A DNA stretch of 64,000 nucleotides, taken from assembly GCF_010731855.1 (NCBI RefSeq), contig NZ_AP022620.1, forward strand, positions 3,162,001 through 3,226,000. The letters are read 5' to 3'. This stretch comes from Mycolicibacterium anyangense. GTDB taxonomy: Bacteria; Actinomycetota; Actinomycetes; Mycobacteriales; Mycobacteriaceae. Below the pieces are notes generated by a model. The model worked only from the letters and a program-made list of their open reading frames with translations. It was not told the DNA's origin and did no database searches. Both the position numbers and the translations under genes were made by a program. Positions 7,633 to 30,461 of this stretch are shown here, piece after piece (position 1 is the stretch's first letter; each line of letters starts with the position of its first letter).

Positions 7633-10074
7633 TCACCCTTTCTTCTCAACGCAACCAGGCTCAATCTTGCCCCCGGCCGATGGCCGCCACAAGGTTCGCG
7701 GTTCGCCGAGTACCCGCCCCTGGATCCACCACAGCGCCTCGATGATGATCGCCGCGACCAGGCCGATCGCCAGCGCCGTCGAGGTGGTCTGGACATTCGA
7801 CGGGTCGAGCATGAACTCCTTGCGCGCCAGCGGAATGGCGAAGATCACCACGTAGGCCAGACCGGAGACGGCCACCAGGGCCACCCGCCACCACTGGTAG
7901 GGCCGGGCCACCACGGCCAGCACCCACACCGCGCCCATCAGCAGGGTGATCAGCGCGGCGGTCGAGGCCTGCATCTGCTCCACGGTGGTGGCGCTGTCGC
8001 GGTAGGCGATCACGTAGGACACGAAGGTCGCCAGGCCGATCACCACGCCCGACGGCAGCGCCGAGACCATCACCCGGCGCACGAACCCGGTATGGGCACG
8101 CTCGTTGTTGGGTGCCAGCGACAGGATGAAGGCCGGGATGCCGATGGTGAACCAGGCCGCGATGGTCACGTGGATCGGCTGGAACGGATAGAGCAGCGGG
8201 TCGGTGCCGAAGAACTTCGATGACAGCCCCGCCAGCCCGACGAGCAGGGCCAGCAACACCGAGTACACCGTCTTGGTGAGGAACAGGTTGGACACCCGCT
8301 CGATGTTGCCGATCACCCGCCTGCCCTCACCCACGACGTAGGGCAGCGTGGCGAACTTGTTGTCCAGCAACACGATCTGCGCCACCGCACGCGATGCCGG
8401 GCTGCCGGAGCCCATCGCCACACCGATGTCGGCATCCTTGAGCGCGAGCACGTCGTTGACGCCGTCGCCGGTCATCGCGACGGTGTGATCGCGGGACTGC
8501 AGCGCGTGCACCATGGCCCGCTTCTGGTCCGGGCGCACCCGCCCGAAGGTGGTGTACTCGGCCATCGTGTCGGCCAGTTCGTCGGGTTCGGACGGCAGCT
8601 GACGGGCGTCCATGGTCTCGCCCTGAAGCCCGAGCGAACCGGCCACCGCACCCACCGAAACCGCGTTGTCGCCGGAAATCACCTTCACCGAGACCTGCTG
8701 GGAGGCAAAGTATTCCAAGGTGTCACGGGCGTCCGGGCGGACCCGCTGCTCCAGGACCACCAGGGCGACGGGAGTGACGGTGCCAGGTGCCTGCGGGCTG
8801 TCGACCGGGACGTCACTGGAACCGAGCAACAGCACCCGCAGCCCGCGCGAACCGATCTCCTCGGCCTGCGCGGCAGCCGGCGAGTCCGGGTCCAGCAGCA
8901 CGTCGGGCGCACCGATCAGCCAGTTGCCGTGCTCGCCGTAGGACGCGCCGCTCCACTTGGTGGCCGACTTGAACGGCGCGCTGGCTGTGGTGGTCCAGCC
9001 CGGCGGGTCGGGATACGCCTCACCGATGGCCTGCATGCTGGCGTTGGGCTTCGGATCGTCGGCCACAAGGGCGCCAAGGACTTTCGCGACCAGATCGGGA
9101 GTGACGTCGGTGCCCTCGGCGGTTACCGACGCCACCTCGGACAACCGCATCCCGTTCTCGGTGAGGGTTCCGGTCTTGTCCGCGCACACCACGTCGACGC
9201 GGGCCAGGCCCTCGATGGCGGGCAGTTCCTGGACCAGGCACTGGCGCCGGCCAAGCCGGACCACCCCGACGGCGAAGGCGATCGACGTCATCAGCACCAG
9301 ACCTTCCGGGACCATCGGCACCAGCGCACCGACCATCCGCAGCACCGACTCCCGCCAGCCGACCCCGGTGGTGAACAGCTGGGTGTAGATGGTCAGCAGG
9401 CCCGCCGGCCACAGCAGGTAGGTGATGAACTGCAGGATCTTGTTGATGCCGCTGCGCAGTTCGGACTTCACCAGGGTGAACTTGCTGGCCTCCTCGGCCA
9501 GCCGGGCCGCGTAGGCCTCCCGGCCCACCTTGGTGGCCCGGTAGGCACCGGTGCCCGCGACGACGAAACTGCCCGACATCACCGCGGCGCCGACGTCTTT
9601 GGGAATCGGGTCGGCTTCACCGGTCAGCAGCGACTCGTCGACCTCCAGCATCGATGCCTCGAGCAATTCACCGTCGACCACGATCTGGTCACCGGGCCCC
9701 AGTTCGATGATGTCGTCGAGGACGACCTCGTTGGGCGCCAAGGGTTTCGTGCCCGACTGGCGGCGCACGGTGGGTTTGGCCTGCCCGACGATGGCCAGGT
9801 TGTCCAGGGTCTTCTTGGCCCGCAGTTCCTGGATGATGCCGATGCCGCTGTTGGCGATGATGAGCAGGCCGAACAGCCCGTTGATCAGCGATCCGGTGGC
9901 CAGCACAATCAGCAGCAGCACACCGAGGATGGCGTTGATCCGGGTGAAGACGTTGGCCCGGACGATCTCGTTGACACTGCGCGACGCCCGGCTGGGGACG
10001 TCGTTGGTCTTACCTTCGGCGGTGCGTGCGGCGACCTCGGCGTCGCTCAGACCGGTCGCGGTGCTGGCAGTCAT
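7633..10074 (-). CDS. ctpE: Cation-translocating P-type ATPase CtpE
   Basis: The 813-residue P-type ATPase has the actuator motif [11 protein letters not shown], the phosphorylation motif [14 protein letters not shown] (catalytic Asp near residue 298), the hinge motif [17 protein letters not shown] and C-terminal membrane helices. Family knowledge: mycobacterial CtpE (Rv0908) is a Ca2+ uptake ATPase that affects cell-surface integrity. It sits within the echA6-to-Rv0910-like operon, overlapping the upstream lipoprotein gene by 4 bases (ATGA). Length is close to that of Rv0908. Identity as CtpE rests on family resemblance plus the conserved neighbourhood on both sides. Confidence 0.9.
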
Positions 10075-11663
10075 TTGGTGAAAGTGCCCATCTTCTCGTC
10101 GTCGTAGTACTCCAGCGTGAGTTTGTCGCCGTCGAAACGGGCCGCGGAAATGCTTCCGGGCGGCGAGTTTTCGTCGACGAAGCTCAGGGCGAACTCATCA
10201 CCGTCCCAGTGGGTCAGCTCGAAGGTCTGCCCCTTGGGTCCCAGTGCCACGGTGAGCTTGCCGTCCTTCTCGGCGACGGTGGCCGGCCCCCAGAACGCAT
10301 TGGCGTAGGTGCCGGCGTAACTGGCCAGCGGCTTGGCCGGCGCGGCATTGGCCGGCGGCTGCTTACCGGACAGCGACCCCACCGGCGCGTCCATCGTGGC
10401 GAAGGCATCGCCGTAGAGCTTGCGCCAGTCTTCGCGGACCTGGCCGAATTGGACGAGGTCGGCGAACTCAGCGGTCAGCGTCTCCGGGATCCCGCGCGGG
10501 GTGGCGTTGGTCAGCGCGACGATCGCGACATCGGCCGACGGGATGATCACGAAGTTCGTTCCGCTTCCGAGTTCGAAGGCCCCGGAATGGCTGATCTCAG
10601 TGCGCGCCGCGGAGGTGGTGCCGACGTTGAATCCGTAGCCGTAGAAACCCGACCGCATGGCCGGCTCACTGGGCGGGCTGGACACGATCTGCGGAGTCAG
10701 CGCCGGCAGCAGCGCGGCGGGATCCACGATCTGCCGGCCGTTGTAGGTTCCGTTGGCCAGCAGCATGGTCAGCCAGTGCGTCATGTCGTTGACCGACGAG
10801 CTGACCCCGCCCGCCGGAGACTCCGGATCGGGGTCACGCTGGTAGCGCGGCTGGTAGCCGCCGTCGATGCGGATGTGACCGAGCGCCTTGTCGGCGCGGG
10901 CCTCGAAGTCGGCGAACGTTGAACTGGTGGAGGCCATCCCCAGCGGCCGGTAGAGCACCTCGTCGCTGAGATCCTCCCAGGACTTACCCGCTGCGGCAGC
11001 AACGGCCTCGGCAGCGGCGGTGAGCCCGAAGTTGGTGTAGGCGTAGGAGATTCGGAACGGGCTCAGCGGATAGTTCCGCAGCCGCTCCAGCACGGCGCGG
11101 CGGTCGTAGCCCAGGTCCTCCAGCTTGTCACCGGCGTGGTCGGGCAGACCGGAACGGTGCGAGTACAGGTCACCGATGGCTACCATCCTGGTGACCGCCG
11201 GATCGGACAGCGCGAACCAGGGCAGCTTGTCGACCACCGGGGTGTCCCAGGTGATCGCCCTGGTGCCAACCTGATGGGCCACCACGGTGGACCCGATCGA
11301 CTTGGACACCGAGGCCAGCTGGAACACCGTGTCGGGATCCACCTTGTTCGACGGGTCATCGGCGGGCCTGGTGTTGTCCTTGACACCAAATCCCTTGGCG
11401 TACACCGTCTTCCCGCCGTGAACGACCGCTACAGCCATCCCCGGGATACCGGAGGACCTCATCAGGTCTGCGGCGATCCCGTCGAGTTTGGCCACCGCGT
11501 TGTCGACGGCGTTGTCCGGCAGCGCCATCGCAGGCACCAGGGGCGGCGGAACGTCGGAGGGCACGGTGGCGGGTTCAGACTTGGGGCTGGTGCTGCAGGC
11601 GGTGAGAGTGGCCAACAGAACGACGGTCACGAGAAGTCTGCCCAGAGCGGTCATGGCTTGCAC
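10071..11663 (-). CDS. Beta-lactamase-fold serine hydrolase lipoprotein (Rv0907-like)
   Basis: The 530-residue protein begins with a lipoprotein signal peptide ([15 protein letters not shown], with lipidated Cys after the LTA lipobox). It carries class C beta-lactamase/PBP-like motifs: SVSK (SxxK) in [16 protein letters not shown] (YxN) in YAYTNFGLT, and HSGAFELG (HxG). A C-terminal beta domain of about 110 residues follows. It would be anchored outside the membrane and act as a peptidase, esterase or cell-wall hydrolase; the substrate is unknown. It corresponds by position and length to Rv0907. A second ATG three codons in (11654) is an equally good start. It is co-transcribed with ctpE (4-base overlap). 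Confidence 0.85.
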
Positions 11664-23568: not shown

Positions 23569-24318
23569 TCAGGCCCCCGGCGGCTGGAGCCACTCGATCG
23601 GTCGCAGCAGCACGATCTCGGGCACCACGCAGCTGCGCGACACCCGGATCGTCATCCGGATCGCCTCGGCGATGTCGGTGGGGGCGATCATCTCCTCGGG
23701 GCCGACGGTGTCGCGATAACCGTTGGCGATCGGAGTGTCGACCAGGCCAGGACAGATCGCGGTGGCCTTGATACCGGCGGTGGACAGCTCGTCGTGCAGG
23801 GACTCGGTGAAGCCGACGACGGCGAACTTGGTGGCCGAGTAGGAGGACAGCCCCGCCTCACCGCGCTTGCCGGCGTTGGAGGCGATATTGACCACCTGAG
23901 CCGATGTGCGTTGCTGCACCGATGCGGTGAGCAGCGGCATCGACTTGCTGGTCAGCAGGATCACCGCCCGGACGTTGACCGCGAGTTGCTCGTCGAGGAA
24001 GTCGGCGGTGATCTGGTGCACCGGCCGATCCCCCGCCACCCCGGCATTGTTGACCAGCAGGTCCAGCGACCCGTGGCGGGCGGCGTGCTCGCCGACCACC
24101 GTATCCAGGAACGCCTCGTCGGCCAGCGATCCGGCCAGCACCGCGACGGGCGGTCCCGCGCCGTCGGTCAGGCCGGCGGCCACGGTGTCGAGCTTACCCG
24201 GGTCACGGCCGACGAGGGTCAGGGCGAAGCCTTCCTCGTGCAGCATCGCCGCGATCGCCGAACCGATACCGCCCGAGGCCCCGGTGACGATGGCACTGCG
24301 TACTGGGCTGTCCACCAA
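23569..24318 (-). CDS. Short-chain dehydrogenase/reductase (classical SDR)
   Basis: The 249-residue Rossmann oxidoreductase has the cofactor loop TGASGGIG, NNAG, a Ser in VVNIASNAGK, and the catalytic YSATK (YxxxK). The loop after the second strand (VGRDPGK) has Arg where NADPH-preferring members do. Substrate is unknown. It follows the GntR gene by 24 bases and belongs to the minus-strand arm of the amino-alcohol-type island. It may oxidise or reduce an alcohol or aldehyde in that route, but it could also be a passenger. Confidence 0.82.
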   Translation of the reverse strand: MVDSPVRSAIVTGASGGIGSAIAAMLHEEGFALTLVGRDPGKLDTVAAGLTDGAGPPVAVLAGSLADEAFLDTVVGEHAARHGSLDLLVNNAGVAGDRPVHQITADFLDEQLAVNVRAVILLTSKSMPLLTASVQQRTSAQVVNIASNAGKRGEAGLSSYSATKFAVVGFTESLHDELSTAGIKATAICPGLVDTPIANGYRDTVGPEEMIAPTDIAEAIRMTIRVSRSCVVPEIVLLRPIEWLQPPGA

Positions 24319-24342
24319 TGGATTACACCTTCCTTGCGGCCG

Positions 24343-25128
24343 TCAGGCGCTGCTCACCGAACGCTCGACCCTGCCATCGGTGCCACGGCGCTCGCGCGAG
24401 GTGACGGTGGACGTGGTCGCGGTGAGCCGGACGCGGTCGGCGCGGAACAGGTCGTAGGCGTATTCGAACGGCCGGTCCGAGGAATCGTGGGTGACGCGGG
24501 TGATCGCCACCAGCGGGCGTTTGTTCGCGATGCCGAGCCACTCGGCTTCCCGGGGGCTGGCGCTGACCACCTCGATCATCTCGGTCGACGTGGCGGGCGA
24601 CAGGCCGTAGCGGACTGCCAGGAGTTCGTAGATCGAGCCGCCCAGCGGTTGCTCGAGCAGATCCACCACCTGTTCGGCGATGAAGCAGGAGAAGTCCACC
24701 GACAGCGGTACGCCGTCGGCGAATCGTAGCCGCCGGATGGCGAAAACCTCTTCGGCGGTGGTGATCTCGAGAGCCGCCGCCTCGGCGGGCGTGGCCGCCC
24801 GGCGATCGGTGGCCAGCACCCTGGTGGCGCTGGTGTGCCCACCGCTGCGGAGCCGGGCGGGCAGTCCGGCCAATTCGGCAGCATTGCGTTCGACGACGTC
24901 GGCCCGCACGAACGTCCCGCCGTTGCGGCCGGTTCGCCGCTCGAGCACGCCGGCACGGCTCAGCGGGAGCAGCGCACTGCGCAGGGTGGACCGGGAGACG
25001 TCGAACTGCTCGGCCATCTCGCGTTCGGTGCCCAACCGGGATCCGGGCCGCAACGCCCCCTGCGCCAGCATCGACAGGATGCGGCGACGGACGTCCTCGG
25101 CGATCGGCCCCCCCTCGGACTCCTCCAT
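24343..25128 (-). CDS. GntR/HutC-family transcription regulator with UTRA domain
   Basis: The 261-residue regulator has an N-terminal winged helix (about 8-75: RRRILSMLAQGALRPGSRLG, TEREMAEQFDVSRSTLRSAL) and a C-terminal UTRA effector-binding domain (about 95-245: ATRVLATDR, FAIRRLRFADGVPLSVD, RPFEYAYDLFRADRVRL). UTRA regulators commonly repress adjacent catabolic operons until a small ligand binds. It is two bases behind an SDR gene. The two AGACCA-containing motifs in the divergent promoter region match half of the TGGTCTAGACCA-type operators recognised by this subfamily, so it probably controls both arms of the island. Confidence 0.88.
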   Translation of the reverse strand: MEESEGGPIAEDVRRRILSMLAQGALRPGSRLGTEREMAEQFDVSRSTLRSALLPLSRAGVLERRTGRNGGTFVRADVVERNAAELAGLPARLRSGGHTSATRVLATDRRAATPAEAAALEITTAEEVFAIRRLRFADGVPLSVDFSCFIAEQVVDLLEQPLGGSIYELLAVRYGLSPATSTEMIEVVSASPREAEWLGIANKRPLVAITRVTHDSSDRPFEYAYDLFRADRVRLTATTSTVTSRERRGTDGRVERSVSSA

Positions 25129-25130
25129 TG

Positions 25131-25907
25131 CTAGTGACTCACGGCGTCCGGGGACTCGGGAAGTACCTGACCACCGTCGACGGCGATGGCCTGACCGGTG
25201 ATGTAGCCGGCCTCCTTGGTGGCCAGGAATGCCGCGAGGTGACCGATGTCCGCAGGCGTGCCCAGCGCACCGGCCGGGATCGCCCGGGTCATGCCGGCGA
25301 TGTAGTCCTCACCCATGTCGGCGAGCCCCTCGGTGAGGATGTTGCCGGGCAGGATGGCATTGACCGTGATCTTGCGCGGCGCCAATTCGATTGCGGCGGT
25401 GCGCATGAAGCCCAGTTGGGCGGCCTTCGAGGCCCCGTAGTGCGACCATCCGGGAAACCCGGTGATCGGCCCGGTGATCGACGAGGTCAGGATCACCCGG
25501 CCGCGCCCGGAGGCGGTCAGGGCCTCCAGGCAGGACTGCACGGTGTAGACGGTGCCCTTGACGTTGATGTCGAGAACCTCGCTCAGCTGGGCCGGTGTCA
25601 TCGAAGCGAGCGGTGCCTCGGGGAAGATGCCGGCGTTGGCGCACACCACGTCAATGGCGCCGAACGTCTCACGCACCGTTTCGGCAAGATTGGCGCACGA
25701 CATCGGATCGGCGACATCGGCCTGGATTCCGATCACCTTTCCCGATCCGCGGTCATCGAGATCGGCGACCACGGCGTCGATGTCGGCCGAGGACCGCGCC
25801 GCGATCGCCACATTGGCGCCCGCCGTGGCGAACACCGTGGCGATACCTCGGCCGATCCCCTTGCTCCCGCCTGTCACCAGGACCGACGTCGACTTCAGAT
25901 CAAACAT
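25131..25907 (-). CDS. SDR-family oxidoreductase (FabG-like)
   Basis: The 258-residue protein starts [19 protein letters not shown] at an ATG preceded by AAAGGAAACGG, a good ribosome-binding site. The much longer upstream frame is rejected. Motifs are [12 protein letters not shown], a Ser in ILTSSITG, and YGASK (YxxxK). The second-strand loop AARSS suggests NADP(H) use. It lies between the kinase and the GntR gene with gaps of 26 and 2 bases, making it part of the same transcript. A role as a dehydrogenase of an amino-alcohol or of the resulting carbonyl is plausible but unproven. Confidence 0.85.
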
Positions 25908-25933
25908 CCGTTTCCTTTCTGCTGCAGGGTCAT

Positions 25934-26965
25934 TCAGACCCTGGAACCGAAGATCGCCTCGTGGAGCCAGGTGCGGTCCTCGAGGTACCGCTGCGCCAAC
26001 CGGGCGGTGTCCGGTGCGAACCGCTCGCCGAGCCCGATCGCGGCGTCGGCGTCGTGGTGGGAGGCGATCCACGCGGTGAGATTGATGCGCCGCATCATGA
26101 CGAACGTCGGGATCAGTTCCAGATGGTTGGGGGCAATGGTCCCGACGTCGAAGTAGCCGGTGAGCCAGTCGGCGATGATGCGCTCGCCGGCCGGGGTGTC
26201 CTCGATGAACGACACCGCCGCACCCAGGTCGGCCAGATACCACGACCACCCGCAGTCGTCGAAGTCGATCACCGTGATGCCCGCGGTCAGGTCGGTGGGA
26301 TCGACCATCAGGTTGGCCAACCGCAGGTCGGCATGCACCAGGCCGAAACGGTCTGGGGCGCTGCCGAACTCGGTGAGCTTCGCGGTGATGTCATCGGAGG
26401 CACGCTGGATCCAGGATCGGTCGGCGTCGGTCAACCCGGGCGCCAGCCGCCAGTTACCCCAGCGCGCGTCGGGCCCCAGGATGGTGTCCAGATCCCAGCG
26501 GAACCTGGTGAATCCGCTCGGTGTGGGCCAGCGCCGGGAGTGCTCGTGCATCACGGCGGTGATCCGACCGAGTTCGTCGAAACCGACCGCGTCGGGGTCG
26601 TCCTCGGCGGTGCAGCCGGGGACGAAGGTCACCGCGTCGACATGCAGCGTTGATCCCTCGGCCTCGGCGACCACCACATCGGCCCCGTCTCGGGCGACGA
26701 CCAATTCCGGTGTGGTAACAGCGGTATCAGTGCGCAGCGCCTTCATCCACGCCAGCTCCGACCGGATCGCGTCCAGCGAGTGGTACCCAGGCCGGTGCAC
26801 CCGCAACACGATCGGGTCGTCGTCGGCGACCAGATAGGTGGCGTTCTCCGACAGGCTCAGCAGACGCAGGGCGGTATCGGCGGCACGGCCGTAGGCAGGA
26901 AGTGCTGCGCGCGCGAAGGACTCATGGGTCGGCGGCAATCCCGGCATGGCAACAGTGTGAACCAT
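25934..26965 (-). CDS. APH-fold small-molecule kinase (homoserine/hydroxylysine kinase type)
   Basis: The 343-residue protein has the aminoglycoside/choline kinase fold. Its catalytic loop is [11 protein letters not shown] (HxDxxxxN, near residue 210) and its metal-binding segment is VIDFDDCG. The N-lobe has [12 protein letters not shown]. Relatives phosphorylate amino alcohols, for example hydroxylysine, homoserine and choline. In animals such a kinase works with an AGXT2L phospho-lyase, and a class III aminotransferase-fold gene is encoded across the divergent promoter here. An AGGAGG lies 3 bases before the ATG at 26965. The next ATG, 26947, is a possible alternative. No resistance-type specificity is implied. 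Confidence 0.8.
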
Positions 26966-26975
26966 TACCTCCTAC

Positions 26976-26989
26976 AAAGCAGACCAAAT
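26976..26989. promoter_or_regulatory. Candidate GntR operator, copy 1
   Basis: AAAGCAGACCAAAT matches a second site at 27173 in 13 of 14 positions. It lies just upstream of the kinase start and contains AGACCA, half of the palindrome favoured by UTRA-type GntR regulators. Confidence 0.5.
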
Positions 26990-27172
26990 CGGCACATTTA
27001 ACGCCCGTGTTTCGCGGCGGGACTTTTGGAAACATTGCCGAAACACTCCGCCGAGATTCCTCCATTTTTCCTGTTGACCAGGCGATCTGACAGGGGTAAC
27101 AATGACCGCGTCGTATCACAACGTTGTCGTCGACAACCACCTCGCTCCCCGGACGCAGCCGCATCTCGGGCT

Positions 27173-27186
27173 AAACCAGACCAAAT
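27173..27186. promoter_or_regulatory. Candidate GntR operator, copy 2
   Basis: AAACCAGACCAAAT is a direct-repeat copy of the site at 26976 and sits 45 bases before the permease start. The 197-base spacing between copies would suit repression of both divergent transcripts. The DNA between the two sites shows no other gene. Confidence 0.5.
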
Positions 27187-27230
27187 AACTGCGCGACCAC
27201 CGGTCGTGTTCGAGACGGGAAAACACACAA

Positions 27231-28808
27231 ATGAGCGACATCATCGACCCGCCTGCCGCGGCAGGAGCCCAGGCCGGTTCGGCGGGTGACACCGTCCAAC
27301 GGCTCAAGCCCAATGCCGTGGGCCTGATCGGCGTGCTGTTCATGGCGGTGGCCACGGCAGCACCGATCACCGCCATGGTGGGCAACGTCCCGATCGCCGT
27401 CGGGTTCGGCAACGGCGCCTACGCGCCGGCCGGCTACTTCGTCGCCACGATCGTGCTGACCCTGTTCGCGATCGGCTACGCCGCGATGAGCAAGCACATC
27501 ACCGCAACCGGCGCCTTCTACGGCTACATCTCGCACGGGCTGGGCCGCATCGTCGGACTCGGCGCCGGCTTCCTGACGACGATGGCCTACATGGTCTTCG
27601 AGGCCTCGCTGATCGGCATCTTCGCGTTCTTCGCCAACGACACGTTCAATTCCCTGTTCCACGTCAACATCTCGTGGATCGTGTTCGCGATCGGCATGCT
27701 CGTGGTCAACCTGGTGCTGACCTACTTCGACATCAACCTGGCGGCCAAGGTGCTCGGGGTCTTCCTCATCACCGAGATCGTCATGCTGGCCCTGATGGCA
27801 CTGTCGGTTCTGTTCACCGGTGGTGGCCCGCAGGGCTGGTCGTGGGGATCGCTCAACCCGCTCAACGGTTTTGCCAGCCTGTCCGGCTCGGTGACCGGTC
27901 CGGACGGCAAGGTGCTCGCGGTGGCCGGCTCGGCCGGTATCGGTCTGTTCTTCGCCTTCTGGTCGTGGGTCGGCTTCGAGTCCAGTGCCATGTACGGCGA
28001 GGAGTCCAAGAACCCGAAGAAGATCATCCCGATCGCGGTCATCAGCTCGGTGGTCGGTATCGGCCTGTTCTACATCTTCATCTCCTGGATGGCCATCGTC
28101 GGCACCGGACCGCAGAATGCCATTGCGCTGGCGCAGGATTCGTCGACTGCCGGCGACATCTTCTTCGGCCCCGTGCAGAGGAACCTCGGCACCTGGGCGG
28201 TCGACATGTTCAAGATCCTGCTGATGACCGGTTCGTTCGCGTGCGGTATGGCCTTCCACAACTGCGCAGCACGCTACATCTACGCCCTGGGCCGCGAGAA
28301 CGTCATCCCCGGTATGCGCAAGACCCTGGGCGCCACCCATCCCGTGCACGGTTCGCCGCACATCGCCGGCCTGGCGCAGACCATCTTCGCGACCGTCGTC
28401 GTGCTGTTCTTCGCCTTCACCGGCCGTGACCCCTACACCGGTCTCTACGGGCTGATGGCGCTGCTGGGCACCACCGCGATCCTGATCGTGCAGGCCCTGG
28501 CGGCGTTCGCGGTGATCGCGTACTTCCACGTCGGAAAGCACCATCCCGAGACCGCACACTGGTTCCGCACATTCCTGGCTCCACTACTCGGCGGCATCGG
28601 CATGCTGTACGTGATCTACCTGCTCGGCAAGAATGCGTCGTTCGCGGCCGGATCGGCGGCCACCGACTGGGTGTTCACCATCATCCCCTACGTGGTCGGC
28701 ATCACCGGTCTCAGCGGGGTCCTGCTGGCTCTCTACCTGAAAGCGAAGTCGCCGCAACGGTATTCGGAGCTCGGCCGGATCGTCCTCGAAGAGGCGCACG
28801 AACGCTGA
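27231..28808 (+). CDS. APC-superfamily amino acid/amine permease
   Basis: The 525-residue transporter has about twelve membrane helices. It opens LKPNAVGLIGVLFMAVATAA followed by PITAMVGNVPIAVGFGNG, the helix-1 region of APC permeases. Other marks are GAFYGYISHGLG and FWSWVGFESSAMYGEESKN. Family members import amino acids, ethanolamine or related amines by proton or solute coupling. It is the first gene of the plus-strand arm, 42 bases before the aminotransferase-fold gene, so it probably imports that enzyme's precursor. Length is ordinary for the family. Confidence 0.88.
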   Translation: MSDIIDPPAAAGAQAGSAGDTVQRLKPNAVGLIGVLFMAVATAAPITAMVGNVPIAVGFGNGAYAPAGYFVATIVLTLFAIGYAAMSKHITATGAFYGYISHGLGRIVGLGAGFLTTMAYMVFEASLIGIFAFFANDTFNSLFHVNISWIVFAIGMLVVNLVLTYFDINLAAKVLGVFLITEIVMLALMALSVLFTGGGPQGWSWGSLNPLNGFASLSGSVTGPDGKVLAVAGSAGIGLFFAFWSWVGFESSAMYGEESKNPKKIIPIAVISSVVGIGLFYIFISWMAIVGTGPQNAIALAQDSSTAGDIFFGPVQRNLGTWAVDMFKILLMTGSFACGMAFHNCAARYIYALGRENVIPGMRKTLGATHPVHGSPHIAGLAQTIFATVVVLFFAFTGRDPYTGLYGLMALLGTTAILIVQALAAFAVIAYFHVGKHHPETAHWFRTFLAPLLGGIGMLYVIYLLGKNASFAAGSAATDWVFTIIPYVVGITGLSGVLLALYLKAKSPQRYSELGRIVLEEAHER

Positions 28809-28850
28809 GGACACGGGCCGCGATCAACCACCACGGTAAGGAGTAGCGAT

Positions 28851-30170
28851 ATGGGTTTCTCGAACATCATGGATTCCAACAGCTACTCCCCGGATCAACC
28901 GCTCGATCCGGCTATCGAATCGTTGATCGCGGCCCGCGATCGCATGCTCGGCCCGGCGTACCGGCTGTTCTACGAACGGCCGGTACACCTGGTCCGCGGC
29001 GAGGGCACCCGCCTCTACGACGCGGACGGCACCTGCTATCTCGATGCCTACAACAACGTCGCCAGCGTCGGCCACTGCCACCCGCACGTGGTCGAGGCGG
29101 TCAGCCGCCAACTCGCCACCCTGAACACCCACACCCGCTACCTACACCGGGGCATCGTCGACTACAGCGAGCGACTGCTGGCCACCATGCCCGATGCGAT
29201 CGACCAGGTGATGTATGCCTGCACCGGCTCGGAGGTCAACGACCTCGCGCTGCGGGTGGCCGAAATGCACACCGGCGCAAAGGGCGTGATCATCACGACC
29301 GACGCCTACCACGGCAACACCGCTGCCGTCACTGCGATCTCGCCGTCGATCGGCGGTTCGACCGCACTCGGCGCCCATGTCCGGGCGGTGGCCCCGCCGG
29401 ACAGCTACCGGATTCCGGCCGCCGATCTCGCCGCCCGGTTCGCCGCCGATGTCATTGCCGCGATCGAGGACCTGGGCGCCAGCGGGGCGGGGGTCAGCGC
29501 TCTGATCGTGGACACCATCTTCTCCTCCGACGGCATCTACCCCGACCCCTCGGTACTCGCTCCCGCGGTGGCGGCCGTCCGCGCCGCCGGCGGCGTGTTC
29601 ATCGCCGATGAGGTCCAGCCCGGGTTCGGGCGCACCGGTGAGGCGATGTGGGGCTTCCTGCGCCACGGCGTGGTCCCCGATCTGGTGACGACCGGCAAAC
29701 CCATGGGCAACGGCCTGCCCATCGCAGCGATGGCCGCACGATCCGAGGTGCTGGAAGCCTTCGCCCGCGGGGTGCCCTACTTCAACACCTTCGGCGGCAA
29801 TCCCGTCACCATGGCCGCCGCCGCCGCGGTGCTCGACGTCATCGAGGACGAGAAGCTGATGTCCAATGCCGACAACGTCGGCACCATGCTGCACACCGAG
29901 CTGTCCGCGCTGGCCCGCGACCATCCCCGCATCGGTGACGTGCGCGGAGCCGGACTCTACCTCGGTGTCGAAATGATCACCGCCACAGGAGAATCCGACC
30001 GCGCTGGCGCGAAAGCGGTGGTCAATGCGATGCGCGAACAGCGAGTGCTGATCTCGGTGTGCGGCCGCGACGGCAATGTGCTGAAGGTCCGGCCGCCCCT
30101 GGTGTTCTCCGAATCCGACGTCGACTGGTTCTGCACCGCTTTCACCGAGGTTCTTCGTTCCTCGCAGTAA
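28851..30170 (+). CDS. Class III aminotransferase-fold enzyme, probable phospho-lyase
   Basis: The 439-residue PLP enzyme has the class III signature: GSEVNDLALRVAEMHTGAKG, DAYHGNT, ADEVQPGFGRTGEAMWGF, and the PLP Lys at about residue 283 in TTGKPMGNGLPIAAM. The GKPMGNG wording is typical of the AGXT2L/ethanolamine-phosphate phospho-lyase branch, which eliminates ammonia and phosphate from O-phosphorylated amino alcohols. With the nearby kinase this suggests kinase-then-lyase catabolism. An ordinary omega-aminotransferase remains possible. A strong AAGGAG site precedes the ATG. Confidence 0.82.
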   Translation: MGFSNIMDSNSYSPDQPLDPAIESLIAARDRMLGPAYRLFYERPVHLVRGEGTRLYDADGTCYLDAYNNVASVGHCHPHVVEAVSRQLATLNTHTRYLHRGIVDYSERLLATMPDAIDQVMYACTGSEVNDLALRVAEMHTGAKGVIITTDAYHGNTAAVTAISPSIGGSTALGAHVRAVAPPDSYRIPAADLAARFAADVIAAIEDLGASGAGVSALIVDTIFSSDGIYPDPSVLAPAVAAVRAAGGVFIADEVQPGFGRTGEAMWGFLRHGVVPDLVTTGKPMGNGLPIAAMAARSEVLEAFARGVPYFNTFGGNPVTMAAAAAVLDVIEDEKLMSNADNVGTMLHTELSALARDHPRIGDVRGAGLYLGVEMITATGESDRAGAKAVVNAMREQRVLISVCGRDGNVLKVRPPLVFSESDVDWFCTAFTEVLRSSQ

Positions 30171-30194: not shown

Positions 30195-30461
30195 GTGGTG
30201 GCACACGACAGCACACCGACCGATCAGGACACCCTCGCGCGCATCCACACCCTGGTGGCCGAGGAACGTCGACTTCGCGAACAACTGGTGCATCGGGAGA
30301 TCGAACCGTCCGAGGAGCACCACCGACTGCGCTCCATCGAAACCGAGCTCGACCAGTGCTGGGACCTGCTGCGGCAGCGCCGGGCCCTGCGTGAGACCGG
30401 CGGCGATCCGCGCGAGGCCAGCGTTCGCCCACCGGACGAAGTCGAGGGCTACCTCAGCTGA
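30195..30461 (+). CDS. DUF2630 family small protein
   Basis: The 88-residue helical protein contains TLARIHTLVAEERRLREQL, EEHHRLRSIETELDQCWDLL and RQRRALRETGGDP, which I recognise as the DUF2630 pattern found across actinobacteria. It is probably a two-helix coiled coil. Two consecutive GTG codons (30195, 30198) could start it. Its stop overlaps that of the convergent MarR gene by 8 bases. Function is unknown. Confidence 0.8.
   Translation: MVAHDSTPTDQDTLARIHTLVAEERRLREQLVHREIEPSEEHHRLRSIETELDQCWDLLRQRRALRETGGDPREASVRPPDEVEGYLS

Follow-up and report, generated by a model that had tools for sequence, protein, structure and literature searches.

The window analysed here, a stretch of 64,000 nucleotides covering positions 3162001-3226000 of the closed 5.70-Mb genome of Mycolicibacterium anyangense, contains a six-gene island which most probably represents an aminoacetone/1-amino-2-propanol catabolic cluster without microcompartment shell genes, i.e., a version of a pathway already known from mycobacteria in which a different enzyme would catalyze the splitting reaction. 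The island consists of genes for a kinase, two short-chain dehydrogenases/reductases (SDR1 and SDR2) and a GntR regulator on the minus strand, and for a permease and a pyridoxal phosphate (PLP) enzyme diverging from them on the plus strand. These genes had been named in an annotation made earlier from the sequence alone (the original prediction), and all six were recovered as open reading frames with the claimed Pfam domains, their coordinates agreeing exactly or closely with those given. At the level of sequence, the gene content, the family placements, the conserved synteny, the lack of detected shell genes and a DNA motif tracking the regulator are established. From these features we infer substrates, reaction directions, operator function and the fate of the aldehyde as follows. 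The permease would import an amino alcohol or aminoketone, SDR1 would interconvert aminoacetone and (S)-1-amino-2-propanol in an NADP-dependent reaction, the kinase would generate (S)-1-amino-2-propanol O-phosphate, and the PLP enzyme would act as a phospho-lyase, eliminating phosphate and yielding ammonia and propionaldehyde. The original prediction had regarded the system as possibly undescribed, which could not be maintained, as the same kinase, SDR, permease and GntR families make up the published RMM (Aut, AUM) aminoacetone/1-amino-2-propanol locus, as described in PMC6620236, PMC4207490 and PMC8156839. The kind of pathway is already known, and the exchanged PLP enzyme and the putative operator are the parts worth following.

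The class III PLP enzyme is encoded at positions 28851-30170 (plus strand; Aminotran_3, 265.5 bits), carries its PLP lysine in the motif GKPMGNG, and is proposed to be a phospho-lyase of the ETNPPL/AGXT2L type, catalyzing the elimination step given above. Its Pfam and NCBIfam names are the generic ones of class III enzymes or aminotransferases and no NCBIfam cut-off is reached, as would be expected for an ordinary omega-transaminase among unrelated neighbours. However, the two top matches in sequence searches against the PDB were 5g4i, a phospholyase (364.8 bits; 47% identity), and 6tor, the ethanolamine-phosphate phospho-lyase ETNPPL (327.7 bits; 43% identity), as compared to 177.7 bits for the best transaminase match, GabT (4ffc), leaving a gap of 187 bits. 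In a maximum-likelihood tree computed quickly from 56 sequences, to which this genome contributed the 19 class III members above the Pfam cut-off, the enzyme falls inside a phospho-lyase clade of 37 rows with a Shimodaira-Hasegawa-like approximate likelihood ratio test (SH-aLRT) support of 99; the tree has no bootstrap values, and the program warned of long branches. The clade also holds 5g4i, 6tor, proteobacterial homologues and three fused kinase-lyase frames of this genome, with GabT, ArgD, RocD, HemL and other transaminases outside. The island lyase has all ten residues that are invariant in 37/37 clade members and rare in transaminases, although these were chosen from a set including the island lyase itself and their rarity in transaminases is given by the selection. 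Together with the kinase linkage seen in Proteobacteria as well, these data render an omega-transaminase highly improbable, and the grouping with AGXT2L/ETNPPL-type enzymes, which the original prediction had put forward as its own test, is borne out by tree and PDB scores alike. The two solved relatives, Arthrobacter A1RDF1 (5g4i) and human ETNPPL (6tor), share the clade and its invariant residues with the island lyase, but differ from it in genome context.

Further phospho-lyase genes are present elsewhere in this genome. A second kinase-lyase pair lies at genome positions 4968329-4970832 (8330-10833 of locus L089), where the frame of an APH kinase overlaps the start of a phospho-lyase 53% identical to that of the island. 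Phospho-lyase domains also occur in three frames of 947-1053 amino acids (aa) near 4.183, 0.672 and 1.319 Mb (L090, L092 and L093), one of which was confirmed by Pfam to combine APH and Aminotran_3 domains. Such fused proteins of about 1000 aa join the two enzyme types of the island in one chain; they show about 40% identity to the island lyase and form their own branch on the tree.

The identity of the probable substrate is suggested by the kinase and SDR1. The APH-fold kinase (25934-26965, minus strand; Pfam APH, 91.3 bits), whose HxDxxxxN loop reads HADLRLAN in the translation, is closest by sequence and fold to 6ef6, an entry entitled 'microcompartment-associated aminopropanol kinase', and is proposed to be an (S)-1-amino-2-propanol kinase. 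SDR1 (25131-25907, minus strand; adh_short, the two SDRs of the island scoring 174.2 and 162.3 bits) is 63.3% identical to 6ci8, 76.7% to 3pk0 and 78.6% to 3rih, and its closeness to 6ci8 and 6ci9, the latter entitled 'RMM microcompartment-associated aminopropanol dehydrogenase NADP + aminoacetone', suggests an aminoacetone reductase/1-amino-2-propanol dehydrogenase. Both 6ef6 and 6ci8 may be regarded as RMM products, because they are 78 and 84% identical, respectively, to the kinase and SDR encoded beside a BMC shell gene in locus L083. The order of import, phosphorylation and elimination envisaged by the original prediction agrees with the permease, kinase and lyase found and with the kinase being nearest to a solved aminopropanol kinase; its further assumption of an SDR acting on a hydroxyl or carbonyl group fits SDR1, but not SDR2, which is not a conserved part of the cluster. 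In Pseudomonas, 1-aminopropan-2-ol is degraded via a kinase and then a phospho-lyase. Work of Mallette and Kimber from 2018 reportedly identified both the kinase of RMM and a paralogue from outside the microcompartment as (S)-1-amino-2-propanol kinases, pointing to a parallel pathway in M. smegmatis. An SDR of M. smegmatis (3pk0), which is clearly distinct from the RMM SDR 6ci8, is 77% identical to SDR1, as would be expected if M. smegmatis also had a cluster of the island type. A hydroxylysine or other hydroxy-amino-acid substrate, which was among those considered in the original prediction, would recall the animal pair of hydroxylysine kinase and phospho-lyase, which has the same two folds, and the phospho-lyase clade takes in AGXT2L-type enzymes (AGXT2L2 reportedly having this activity). 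Since no positive support of its own was found for such a substrate, with a tree holding no AGXT2L2 sequence, and the nearest characterised relatives of SDR1 and the kinase act on a three-carbon amino alcohol, we consider it very unlikely.

The closest known system is the RMM locus of Mycobacterium and Rhodococcus. According to PMC6620236, the Aut cluster found in Rhodococcus and M. smegmatis comprises genes for a permease, an aminotransferase, an aldehyde dehydrogenase, a 1-amino-2-propanol dehydrogenase, a phosphotransferase and a GntR regulator, and PMC4207490 defines RMM1 and RMM2; in both papers, the Rhodococcus cluster is induced by 1-amino-2-propanol and the PLP enzyme is treated as an aminotransferase in the proposals. 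RMM1 is given as absent from M. leprae and M. tuberculosis in PMC8156839. The permease, SDR, kinase and GntR of these loci are homologous to those of the island, and the order kinase-SDR-GntR is the same. In 16 RMM loci taken in full (L081-L088 and L094-L101), the homologues are 60-65% (SDR1), 43-46% (kinase) and 41-47% (GntR) identical to the island proteins, and the permease homologues 60-63% in 15 of the 16, so that four of the five core genes of the island have counterparts there. The island permease itself (27231-28808, plus strand; AA_permease_2, 83.6 bits) belongs to the APC family and is the proposed importer of the amino alcohol or aminoketone.

The island differs from these loci in several respects. 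Profile searches of the whole genome for BMC (PF00936) and EutN_CcmL (PF03319) domains returned no match to either, with E. coli and Synechococcus as positive controls giving matches; within the genus, a BMC shell match is present in 45 of 248 genomes. An aldehyde dehydrogenase of the RMM type is not encoded in the window. The island PLP enzyme comes from the phospho-lyase clade, whereas RMM loci encode another class III enzyme, which is just 25-30% identical to the island lyase in the 16 loci, scores best against putrescine aminotransferase in the PDB comparison (192 vs. 115 bits for ETNPPL), and differs at seven of the ten clade residues in 5/5 sequences, with N69, Q256 and W267 in common. 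Regarding it as a wholly unrelated branch was not upheld, however: although the score favours putrescine aminotransferase, the RMM enzymes (five sequences), together with a further enzyme of the present genome (L206), adjoin the phospho-lyase clade from outside (support 95, on a branch of length 2.82 flagged as unsafe), and a possible distant sister relation lowers the case for convergence. A shell-less cluster of this kind was not found reported in the literature searched, which is not proof that none has been. The island may serve as a natural control for RMM: related organisms carry little-changed versions of its permease, dehydrogenase and kinase that lack a shell, which allows one to ask directly what the shell contributes. 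The reaction scheme of RMM, which is not settled, can likewise be put to the test by way of the exchanged PLP enzyme.

The core set of GntR, SDR1 and kinase genes divergent from permease and lyase genes recurs, in whole or in part and in the same arrangement, in many loci of Mycolicibacterium and Mycobacteroides, and minus one gene in two Gordonia loci and one Williamsia locus; because of this recurrence, the grouping is not due to chance. Plasmids of Shinella and Burkholderia, both outside the genus, carry a gene for a lyase homologue that is immediately preceded by a kinase gene (2/2 examined among 384 matching records). Among 248 genomes of the genus, an island-type lyase (at least 64% identity) is present in 64, an island-type kinase (at least 56%) in 56 and both in 51, these counts being uncorrected for kinship. 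Several observations weigh against an aminoacetone/1-amino-2-propanol pathway: the island kinase is missing from 13 of the 64 genomes with the lyase, and the lyase from five of the 56 with the kinase; kinase and lyase stand alone, without SDR1 and permease, in nine loci; the kinase is 47% identical to its characterised relative, and its substrate specificity may differ; and a tblastn search of the window with the RMM aldehyde dehydrogenase gave no match at an E-value of 1e-3. Because of the nine loci with just kinase and lyase, the lyase step by itself need not mean aminoacetone. Clusters of this type would also suit ethanolamine or another small amino alcohol as main substrate, with the kinase producing phosphoethanolamine, the lyase acetaldehyde and SDR1 serving otherwise; among the solved relatives of the lyase, ETNPPL 6tor ranks second, and Arthrobacter 5g4i is said to take phosphoethanolamine, too. 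Weighed with the relatives of kinase and SDR1, we regard this alternative as unlikely, and keep 1-amino-2-propanol as the preferred substrate. The propionaldehyde would then be taken on by an aldehyde dehydrogenase encoded elsewhere, perhaps by an 892-aa frame at 4.686 Mb, which gives the best match to the RMM enzyme in the genome (4686090-4687412, 39% identity), followed by 16 weaker ones.

Shell genes are found in 13/13 of the genomes with a lyase but without the island kinase, as compared to 9/51 of the genomes with both genes (Fisher p = 3.8e-8); on the tree, however, this pattern needs only three changes, and an independent-pairs test with two pairs had no power (p = 1), so the link between loss of the island kinase and presence of shell genes is a hint, suggestive and not significant. 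A kinase homologue stands beside a shell gene in 12 of the 13 genomes, and genome G066 also has one. GntR, permease and lyase are retained in 12 of the 13, whereas G066 has a lone lyase, separated by about 6 kb from the RMM locus of that genome. In three further loci from genomes without a shell match (L228-L230), a set of RMM-type permease, PLP enzyme, kinase, SDR and GntR occurs, and neither a shell gene nor an RMM aldehyde dehydrogenase was found within 20 kb. We offer only tentatively, as a rather doubtful idea, that two class III PLP branches, the ETNPPL type of the island and the putrescine-aminotransferase-like type of RMM and L228-L230, may perform the same phospho-lyase step in otherwise homologous operons which swap parts, the island lyase being supplied by the kinase and SDR of RMM where the island kinase was lost. 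In L228, a frame for the large and medium subunits of a diol dehydratase adjoins the permease gene.

The GntR-UTRA regulator (24343-25128, minus strand; UTRA 124 and GntR 56.5 bits) is proposed to control both transcripts locally, binding to a pair of CAGACCAAA sites in the region from which the kinase and permease genes diverge, in response to the substrate or an intermediate. The probable operators are GCAGACCAAAT at 26979-26989, adjoining the kinase start, and CCAGACCAAAT at 27176-27186, adjoining the permease start (both plus strand), as compared to 0.04 copies of SCAGACCAAAW expected by chance in the window. Counting identical regions once and covering loci with a lyase of at least 60% identity (L139, L140, L148, L177, L204 and L212, six loci that have no divergent partner, being left out), CAGACCAAA, a motif chosen post hoc, is present in 59/59 distinct divergent regions of GntR-bearing clusters, with at least two copies in 51 of them; shuffling left about 0.15 regions in all with the motif. 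It is present in 0/11 regions without a detected GntR; of these, L135 is cut by a contig end, so that a GntR gene may have been missed there, and the nine kinase-lyase regions are short (median 57 bases), which makes absence from them weak evidence. The motif likewise occurs in 0/17 RMM and 0/3 RMM-type shell-less regions, so that the regulator site of the RMM locus differs from that of the island. We consider CAGACCAAA the likely operator of the island GntR and a concrete candidate for testing. Three copies of SCAGACCAAAW exist in the whole genome, two of them in the island. A search of this putative regulon for the aldehyde dehydrogenase gene failed, the third copy lying in a 1249-aa frame which by sequence reading resembles 2-oxoglutarate dehydrogenase/decarboxylase. 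Since 22 other genomes contain 0 to 8 copies each, carriers and non-carriers alike, and thus a background level, single copies are meaningless and only pairs in the divergent region count. A palindrome, TGTGGTNNAGACCACA, occurs in 2/17 RMM promoter regions (L087 and L097) and may be a site of the RMM GntR.

The remaining gene of the island, that of SDR2 (23569-24318, minus strand; adh_short), adjoins the GntR gene in close relatives only and has a best solved match of 99 bits; it was rejected as a pathway member and is regarded as accessory. A small DUF2630 gene follows immediately 3' of the lyase gene (30195-30461). Finally, an island-type kinase without a lyase occurs in three genomes (L215, L216 and L217) near a gene which by sequence reading resembles glutamyl-Q tRNA(Asp) synthetase.
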